Below, in pieces: positions 6,823-19,241 of a stretch of 64,000 bases of DNA. The notes beneath the pieces are model-generated. The model worked only from the letters and a program-made list of their open reading frames with translations, was not told the origin of the DNA and searched no databases. How positions within the stretch are numbered: the first letter of the stretch is position 1; each line of letters begins with the position of its first letter. A program made the translations under genes and the position numbers. Source of the stretch: Caballeronia catudaia (GTDB lineage: Bacteria > Pseudomonadota > Gammaproteobacteria > Burkholderiales > Burkholderiaceae); NCBI RefSeq assembly GCF_001544755.2, contig NZ_FCOF02000033.1, positions 1 to 64,000 of the forward strand, in the 5' to 3' direction.

Positions 6823-6933
6823 CGAGCTTGCTTCCGAGTGAGAGAGGAAGCATGGATGTTACTGCCTGAGCGCCGCCGACAGGACATTACGTGCAAACCC
6901 TCGGTTGACGACGCAGCCGTCCCGACCGCAAGC

Positions 6934-15371: not shown

Positions 15372-16343
15372 ATGCCCGACACCTTACCCGAACCACAAGC
15401 CGTCTGTAACCCGATCTCCCGCAGCGCGATCTTCATGGTCGCCACCGTGGCGCGCGGGGAAGATAAAGCCGATATCGTGCGTTCATGGTGCGGCGATATC
15501 GCAGCGCTGGTGCGCGCGGTCGGCACGCGCGCGCCGACCGCGAACCTCTCCTGCGTATGCGGCTTCGGCTCCGATGCGTGGGACCAGCTGTTCGGCGCGC
15601 CGCGTCCGTCGTCACTGCATCCGTTTCGCGAATTCGGCTCGGGCGATCGGCGCGCGATCGCGACGCCGGGCGATATCCTCATGCATATCCGCGCGGATCA
15701 TATGGATCTGTGCTTCGAACTCGCGTCGCACATGCTCGACAAACTCGGCGATGCGGTCACGGTCGTCGACGAAGTGCACGGCTTTCGATACTTCGATCTG
15801 CGCGATATGGTCGGCTTCGTCGACGGCACCGAAAACCCGACGGGCAAGCGCGCCGCGACTTACACGATCATCGGTGACGATGACCCGGAGTTCAGCGGCG
15901 GCAGCTATGTGATCGTGCAGAAGTATTTTCATAACCTCGATGCATGGAACGGCCTGACGGTCGAGCAGCAGGAGCTGATTATCGGCCGCGAAAAGCTATC
16001 CGATGTCGAGCTCGACGATTCGATCAAGCCTTCGTGTTCGCATAGCTCGCTCACGACGATCGAAGAGAACGGCGAGGAAGTGAAGATCCTGCGGCATAAC
16101 ATGGCCTTCGGCCGTCCGGGCGCGAAGGAGTTCGGCACGTATTTCATCGGCTATGCGCGCACGCCGAAACCAATCGAGCAGATGCTGGAGAATATGTTCG
16201 TCGGAAGGCCGCCGGGCAATTACGACCGCCTGCTCGATTACAGCCGCGCAGTGACGGGCGGCCTCTTCTTCGTGCCGTCCAGTGATCTGCTCGATGCGCT
16301 TCCCGACCGAAAGCCCGCAAACCGCGTCATCTTCCGTCGATGA
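15372..16343 (+). CDS. DyP-type heme peroxidase, encapsulin cargo candidate
   Basis: The 323-residue frame is a dye-decolorizing peroxidase of the P/B type that uses H2O2 to oxidise organic substrates. It shows the distal GXXDG motif GFVDGTENP (Asp151), the proximal heme histidine in SHSSLT (His224), and Arg241 in ILRHNMAFG. ATG 15372 gives MPDTLPEPQA, the normal start; the frame extends further upstream without support. The annotated end RKPANRVIFRR is unlike family tails. The +1 frame from 16306 instead encodes a Ser/Glu-rich linker and an encapsulin cargo-loading peptide, listed separately. The gene is followed directly by the encapsulin gene. Confidence 0.93.
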   Translation: MPDTLPEPQAVCNPISRSAIFMVATVARGEDKADIVRSWCGDIAALVRAVGTRAPTANLSCVCGFGSDAWDQLFGAPRPSSLHPFREFGSGDRRAIATPGDILMHIRADHMDLCFELASHMLDKLGDAVTVVDEVHGFRYFDLRDMVGFVDGTENPTGKRAATYTIIGDDDPEFSGGSYVIVQKYFHNLDAWNGLTVEQQELIIGREKLSDVELDDSIKPSCSHSSLTTIEENGEEVKILRHNMAFGRPGAKEFGTYFIGYARTPKPIEQMLENMFVGRPPGNYDRLLDYSRAVTGGLFFVPSSDLLDALPDRKPANRVIFRR

Positions 16344-16416
16344 AAGCAGCAAGGAAGATAACCGCGAAGGCACGTTGAACATTGGCTCACTCAAAGGAAT
16401 GCCACAAGATGAATAA
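16306..16416 (+). other. out-of-frame encapsulin cargo-loading extension of the DyP gene
   Basis: In the +1 frame relative to DyP, the bases from 16306 read TESPQTASSSVDESSKEDNR, then EGTLNIGSLKGMPQDE and a TAA at 16414-16416. GTLNIGSLKG is the classic cargo-loading peptide that docks DyP peroxidases to the inner wall of encapsulin shells. The DyP frame stops at 16343, about 25 bases before it. The TAA overlaps the encapsulin ATG (16409), as expected for an original coupled junction. Joining the frames at CTT-CCC-G (16300-16306) would give a 347-residue tagged peroxidase. A one-base insertion in the gene or read, or programmed +1 slippage on CCC, would explain it. Confidence 0.85.
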
Positions 16417-17212
16417 CCTGCATCGAGAGCTCGCACCGATATCGGGCGCCGCGTGGGCGCAGATCGAAGCCGAAGTCGCGCGCACGTTCAAGCGTGCCGT
16501 CGCGGGGCGCCGCGTCGTCGACGTGAAGAATCCCGGCGGCGTCGCACTGTCCGGCATCGGCACGGGGCATCAGACGAACATCGCATCGCCGACGAAAGGT
16601 GTTTCGGCGAAGCTGTATGACGTGAGGCAGCTCGTGCAACTGACCGTGCCGTTCACGCTGCAGCGCGAGGCTATCGACAGCGTGGAGCGCGGTTCGAACG
16701 ACGGCGACTGGCAACCCGCCAAGGCCGCCGCGAACGGACTCGCGCTCGCCGAAGACAGCGCGATCTTCGATGGCTTCGCGGCCGCCGGCATCGTCGGTAT
16801 CCGGCCAGGCAGCTCGAATGCCGCGACGTATCTGCCCGCGGATGTCGCCGACTATCCCACCGCCATCAGTCAGGCGCTGGAGAAGCTGAGGCTCGCCGGC
16901 GTGGACGGCCCCTACTCCGTGCTGCTCGGCGCGGATGCCTATACCGCGCTCGCCGAAGCAAGCGATCAAGGTTATCCCGTCATTCAGCACATCGAGCGCA
17001 TCGTGAGCGGTGAACTCGTATGGGCGCCGGCGCTCGCAGGAGGCTGCGTGCTCTCGACGCGCGGCGGCGATTACGAGCTGCATATCGGACAGGATTTATC
17101 GATCGGCTACACGAGTCATACCGATACGGCCGTGCAGCTCTACCTGCGCGAAACGCTCACGTTCCTGATGCTGACGAGCGAGGCATCCGTTTCCATCGCG
17201 GTCGGGGAATAG
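16409..17212 (+). CDS. family 1 encapsulin shell protein
   Basis: The 267-residue protein matches the encapsulin / linocin M18 family, HK97-fold proteins that self-assemble into nanocompartments around tagged cargo. It begins MNNLHRELAPISGAAWAQIE and carries family segments RVVDVKNPGGVALSGIGTG, DSAIFDGF, and the C-terminal LSIGYTSHTDTAVQLYLRETLTFLML. The start at 16409 was preferred over a longer frame from 16382 because it matches the family and has AAAGGA upstream. That AAAGGA lies inside the cargo-peptide codons of the preceding frame, so translation of the two genes was probably coupled. Confidence 0.95.
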   Translation: MNNLHRELAPISGAAWAQIEAEVARTFKRAVAGRRVVDVKNPGGVALSGIGTGHQTNIASPTKGVSAKLYDVRQLVQLTVPFTLQREAIDSVERGSNDGDWQPAKAAANGLALAEDSAIFDGFAAAGIVGIRPGSSNAATYLPADVADYPTAISQALEKLRLAGVDGPYSVLLGADAYTALAEASDQGYPVIQHIERIVSGELVWAPALAGGCVLSTRGGDYELHIGQDLSIGYTSHTDTAVQLYLRETLTFLMLTSEASVSIAVGE

Positions 17213-18632: not shown

Positions 18633-19241
18633 ATGGAACTGCGCCATGGAGTTGCGCAGCGTGCGCGCCGCATCCGAACATCTGCACGTCACGCAACCGG
18701 CCATCTCGCGGCAGATTCGGGATCTCGAAGAGGCTATCGGCGCTACGCTTTTCGAACGCACCACGCGCGGCATGAAGCTGACGTCCGCGGGTATCGCGTA
18801 TCTAAGCGAAGCGCGCGATATCCTCGCGCGCGTCGATGCGGCGAACCGGCTCGCGCATCGCATCGCGCCAGGCGAGCAAGGCCGCTTGCGCGTGGGGTTC
18901 GTCGAGAACGCATCGTGGAGCGGACTCGTATCGTCGACGTTGAGCGCGTTTCAACATTCCGCGAGCGATGTCGCGCTCGAATTGCAGCCGATGAACACGC
19001 CCGAGCAACTCGACGCCATTGCCGCCGAGCGTCTCGACGTGGCTTTTGTTATCGCTTCGGCGCATTGCCCGAAGGCTTCGGGATCGTCGAAATTCGACGT
19101 CGGCACTTCCACGCCGATCCAGTTCGCTTCCGATCCCCATCAACGGTGCAGGTCGGCGAAGCGAGAGCGCGCATGCCAATGTTCTTACACGCACCGATAG
19201 AATCCGCTGCGTGCGGACGGCGAAAAAGAAGAAGGGGCTAA
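18633..19241 (+). pseudogene. LysR-family regulator, frameshifted and truncated
   Basis: ATG 18633 begins MELRH, a common LysR start, but the frame is lost within a few codons. The HTH appears in the next frame from 18646 (RAASEHLHVTQPAISRQIRD). Some ten residues normally found between the start and the HTH are missing. The effector domain continues to about 19060, and the frame then switches again: the useful reading becomes LPEGFGIVEIRRRHFHADP before it ends. A normal LysR protein has about 300 residues; fewer than 200 remain. It is a decayed gene. Confidence 0.75.

Follow-up and report, generated by a model that had tools for sequence, protein, structure and literature searches.

The locus raises the question of how a DyP-type peroxidase could be loaded into the encapsulin encoded beside it when the cargo-loading peptide lies outside the reading frame of the enzyme. 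In the window (the whole 64,000-nucleotide stretch of Caballeronia catudaia DNA that was analysed), the following features bear on this question.

15372..16343, forward strand: DyP-type peroxidase with an encoded length of 323 aa; the two Pfam DyP domains are complete, and the cargo tag is out of frame.
16314..16316, forward strand: CCC run at which the window is one base longer than 18 of 18 aligned relatives and the frame changes (alignment of the relatives; alignment of the C. arvi contig).
16317..16343, forward strand: out-of-frame DyP tail (ANRVIFRR) and stop.
16315..16416, forward strand: linker followed by the cargo-loading peptide GTLNIGSLKG, read in the +1 frame up to a TAA; identical core in frame in C. 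arvi.
16409..17212, forward strand: intact shell protein (267 aa) of a family 1 encapsulin (PF04454, NF041155).

The DyP frame runs from the ATG at 15372 to a TGA at 16341-16343, in agreement with the stop at 16343 given by an earlier, sequence-only reading of this DNA, and its tail reads ...LPDRKPANRVIFRR. In profile searches the protein matched PF04261, PF20628 and TIGR01413, each above the cut-off. The match to the C-terminal peroxidase domain has residue 305 as its last residue, and the best solved-structure match (7bok) covers residues 5-312; the enzyme core is thus upstream of the point where the frames part. Translation of the +1 frame gives PQTASSSVDESSKEDNREGTLNIGSLKGMPQDE, and the TAA of this frame at 16414-16416 overlaps the encapsulin ATG at 16409, as had been claimed together with the presence of GTLNIGSLKG in that frame. 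The DyP of C. arvi has a near-identical tail with an identical tag core, in frame (PQTASSSVDQSSKDDSREGTLNIGSLKGTSQDE), and therefore the tag in the +1 frame is not due to chance. A tag-like DNA pattern occurs three times in the 7.7 Mb genome, namely at this locus, in a second DyP-encapsulin operon and at one site elsewhere that would spell IGTLK. The shell protein scored 328.1 bits against NF041155 (cut-off 100), which identifies it as a family 1 shell, and 305 bits against PF04454 (cut-off 24.3); 258 of its 267 residues are identical in C. arvi. An adjacent cargo enzyme of known class, DyP, is also present, as is characteristic of family 1 systems. The C-terminal targeting peptide, which in such systems lies in the cargo's own frame, is found here in the +1 frame and has its expected place in the second operon, on contig C118.

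The join between the frames had been proposed at CTT-CCC-G (16300-16306). Both the coordinates and the site were mistaken: CTT occupies 16299-16301 and CCC 16302-16304, and the candidate was rejected because in the aligned relatives the DyP frame continues past it over four further residues (DRKP in C. arvi, whose DyP reads ...LPDRKPQTASSSVDQSSKDDSREGTLNIGSLKGTSQDE in a single frame). Since the relatives are in the DyP frame through DRKP, the frame change is placed at the C run 16314-16316. The hidden tag is thus real, and the shift had been misplaced. The aligned relatives comprise 14 first-locus and 2 second-locus loci of Caballeronia and 2 of Paraburkholderia. The suggested check, whether relatives share the extra base and the CCC site, was run, and neither is present in any of the 18. 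By the rule laid down in the sequence-only reading, absence of the extra base from all relatives indicates a simple mutation (or an error).

We lean towards a private, very recent single-base frameshift at 16314-16316 in an ordinary family 1 operon, with mutation likelier than error; the weights given here to mutation, error and recoding, which were also the right three rivals to consider when first proposed, are a matter of judgement. The C run would have gained one base, putting the tag out of the DyP frame. The peroxidase would still be made and active, DyP would no longer enter the shell that its operon encodes, leaving this shell either empty or filled by the tagged DyP of the second operon.

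The survey of relatives agrees with a private lesion. Tags were in frame in all 20 tagged first-locus Caballeronia loci (L004-L021, L024, L025) among the 29 DyP loci fetched from the genus besides the window (L004-L032), the other nine being without a tag. A second set of 80 DyP loci (L033-L112) from contigs of other genomes gave 47 with the tag in frame, 32 without a tag and one with the tag out of frame. Downstream of the 32 untagged DyP loci a simple motif search of the fetched stretch found an encapsulin start in none, and the same motif likewise found none at two of the 47 tagged loci (L074, L111). The family survey covered 398 genomes, of which 139 contained a total of 144 encapsulin matches at E <= 1e-60, and the junction was read at each. 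Among 118 of these matches (L130, L132-L248), 109 had the DyP tag in frame, two had it lost or shortened, seven had no DyP tail in the stretch, and an out-of-frame tag was found in none. One further match (L131) has stops in both DyP and shell, yet its tag is in the DyP frame. The remaining 25 are Caballeronia, 24 with the tag in frame and the window with the tag out of frame. Over all 144 matches, 134 tags are in frame and one, that of the window, is out of frame; the sets of 29, 80 and 144 loci overlap, and their counts are not additive. A conserved split frame was sought in the genus, the 80 DyP loci and the 144 encapsulin loci, and besides the window it was seen only in Paraburkholderia tuberum, at a locus whose shell gene is disrupted. 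A search of plasmid records returned no second strain of the species; it gave Caballeronia sp. NK8 twice at near full length and one partial Streptomyces record.

No relaxed selection was seen in DyP or shell when it was sought against 14 relatives: the window lineage has two unique changes in the shell (0-6 in the 14 relatives) and one in DyP (0-4). The lesion is therefore either very recent or an error. In the tail, 9 of 34 codons differ from C. arvi and five of these differences alter the residue, with the core tag unchanged.

The same observations, a tag core identical to that of C. arvi and no sign of relaxed selection, are what an intact gene would show, and they keep a sequencing or assembly error as a serious, though less probable, explanation. 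The true gene would then be a plain tagged DyP as in the relatives. The lesion is a single base in a C run, and one-base run errors are a usual assembly fault; on the other side, the run is only three bases long, and a comparison of 38 genes with C. arvi shows frames that are otherwise mostly clean. That comparison is limited to one contig, NZ_FCOM02000026.1, which holds the best named match. DyP is 97-98% and the shell 97% identical there, and aligned blocks of the contig are ~87-95% identical to the window, which on sequence identity makes C. arvi probably a sister species. The 38 genes (12,422 codons) were selected by third-position bias and at least 60% alignment; we relied on third-position bias since an ORF-level frame test is confounded by antisense shadow ORFs. 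Across 49,029 aligned columns there are 79 indels of a length not divisible by three, and many lie outside the 38-gene set. Within that set, just one isolated single-base change of frame was judged to fall well within a gene, namely the DyP lesion. The other frame-changing indels fall in 5' extensions of over-long ORFs, at extreme ends or at a synteny breakpoint at 43.3-43.4 kb, a sorting made by judgement from their positions and least sure for the DUF188 gene at 6840, where a 2-nt difference lies 105 nt into the C. arvi ORF of that family.

Two further single-base deletions relative to C. arvi, at window positions 2062 and 2172, add some weight to an error. They lie within a poorly preserved ORF, of 263 residues and without Pfam match in C. 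arvi, that is 44% preserved at ~1800-2200 of the window with its pieces in three frames; by the coverage rule (<60% aligned) it falls outside the 38 genes. These deletions may reflect decay or errors. A real lesion nearby speaks against an error in DyP: the LysR gene at 18633-19200, at a break in synteny with C. arvi about 2.3 kb downstream of the DyP lesion, has lost 23 nt close to its start as well as roughly the 3' half of the gene, which in C. arvi encodes 298 residues. Single-base errors do not produce a 23-nt deletion and the loss of about half a gene, and the LysR lesion is therefore real decay.

It had also been suggested that programmed frameshifting yields tagged and untagged peroxidase. 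The evidence does not support this, and programmed or leaky +1 frameshifting at CCC-G (16314-16317), giving such a mixture, seems very unlikely to us. A +1 slip at CCC-G would indeed enter the frame corresponding to the C. arvi tail, and according to the available text of PMC4519876 native UGG tRNA-Pro can undergo slippage in vitro at CCC-G, to a greater extent than at CCC-C. However, neither the CCC-G site (0 of 18 aligned relatives) nor the split frame is conserved. The sites that the same text calls particularly slippery are CC[C/U]-[C/U], and the slippage studied there is at the second codon (PMC4519876). Programmed +1 frameshifting would call for such a sequence or a stop at the shift point; here the site is CCC-G and the stop follows 8 codons downstream. 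A stimulatory RNA structure was sought downstream and not found, the fold being ordinary (z -0.57; a fold as good or better in 54 of 200 shuffles). The available text of PMC4519876 gives values of less than 0.003 per cent for ordinary, non-programmed +1 shifting and of up to 1 per cent for CCC-C at the second codon. Given the slippage of UGG tRNA-Pro at CCC-G in vitro in that text, a small chance of leaky tagging remains. It is tempting to speculate that leaky slippage at CCC-G tags a small share of a mostly free enzyme and, more broadly, that loss or weakening of the tag with the shell kept is a recurrent evolutionary switch in DyP encapsulins, an idea we regard as a long shot. Judging by titles and the beginnings of abstracts, no published case of a frameshifted, pseudogene or untagged-DyP encapsulin was found; programmed attachment of the tag, if true, would be new for encapsulins so far as the literature was searched, and the evidence does not favour it.

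Decoding barriers in front of targeting signals have a precedent in the stop-codon readthrough of metabolic enzymes, which, in the portion of PMC4207609 available, gives dual localisation by leaky decoding. As here, a targeting signal lies behind the barrier; in those fungal and animal systems the barrier is a short stop-codon context (PMC4207609, same portion), whereas in the window it is private to one genome.

A different route to the tag would be translation of the +1 stretch alone from an internal start, giving a free tag peptide. The tag frame is open at 16255-16416 and holds four start codons (16282, 16294, 16375, 16399), the first two of them within the DyP coding sequence. The relatives carry the tag as part of the enzyme, and a free tag would presumably carry no cargo. 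We consider this route extremely improbable.

We return to the single-base mutation as the preferred reading. As a result, 65 nt separate the DyP stop from the shell start, where the two would otherwise overlap by 8 nt, and shell synthesis may therefore fall. An AAAGGA sequence is still present upstream of the shell ATG, so some shell synthesis would be expected. Cargo enters family 1 encapsulins by way of targeting peptides, according to the parts of PMC7925596 and PMC8346489 available. The sequence-only reading had listed, as one of its explanations, a mutation that would leave the shell without its cargo. If the mutation is real, the DyP of the same operon should not load; the wider idea of a cargo-less shell loses force because the genome encodes another intact, tagged DyP. 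The complete operon on C118 has GTLDIGSLKG in frame and an intact shell that shares 228 of 267 residues with the first. The second operon may compensate, and cross-loading between the operons would be plausible. If the frameshift is real, it constitutes a natural experiment in which one base has uncoupled a peroxidase with an intact core from an intact shell, in a genome with a further operon that is undamaged; it could reveal whether cross-loading of shells occurs and what the enzyme gains or loses by encapsulation. If it is an error, the locus is a standard operon and nothing more.

The C118 operon (L120, G000:C118, 304-9269) is flanked on one side by genes that we take to be Lon-like and Hsp20-like and on the other by what is presumably a Clp ATPase-like gene; its surroundings are possibly a protein-quality-control island.

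Compared with known systems, the closest is the family 1 DyP operon of C. arvi LMG 29317, the closest named relative found, with the same gene order, the same GTLNIGSLKG and a tag-frame stop that likewise overlaps the shell start by 8 nt; the window differs in being one base longer at 16314-16316, with the tag out of the DyP frame. The encoded DyP also ends near the natural ends of untagged Caballeronia DyPs (for example in C. sordidicola LMG 22029 and C. humi LMG 22934), which terminate at or near DRKP or DRNP. Downstream of those untagged DyPs no encapsulin start was found by the simple motif in the fetched stretch, whereas the window keeps an intact shell. In P. tuberum STM678 (L050, not among the 144 encapsulin matches) the DyP gene likewise has its tag in the +1 frame, as in the window. 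Unlike in the window, the lesion is a different one, lies further downstream and is accompanied by a disrupted shell gene, and L050 therefore looks like an independent decay event. At 1350-2270 of L050 the opposite strand carries an ORF that, by its look, we take to be transposase-like.

Other natural tag lesions were observed in the family. At L168 (G382:C3:908798-909798; in the oriented sequence DyP ends at nt 392) the tag is shortened to DGSLKGVPS, compared with DGSLKIGSLKGVPS in its siblings, through an in-frame loss, perhaps between the two GSL repeats. This DyP adjoins a full-length encapsulin match, and L168 is thus a tag lesion with the shell kept. The DyP at L248 (G377:C414:134130-135130) lacks a tag and ends in ADRSAPAAVVRQHE, but its overlap with the start of the shell gene is kept; the match to the shell spans residues 1-185 only. 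With the tag lesions in L168, L248 and L050, uncoupling of DyP and shell does happen in the family. The stops in both genes of L131 (G014:C275:36900-38900), in a same-genus genome of 5.1 Mb, mark a decaying operon. At L163, L168, L171, L175 and L185 the DyP end lies ~440-710 nt before the encapsulin start, compared with the usual overlap.
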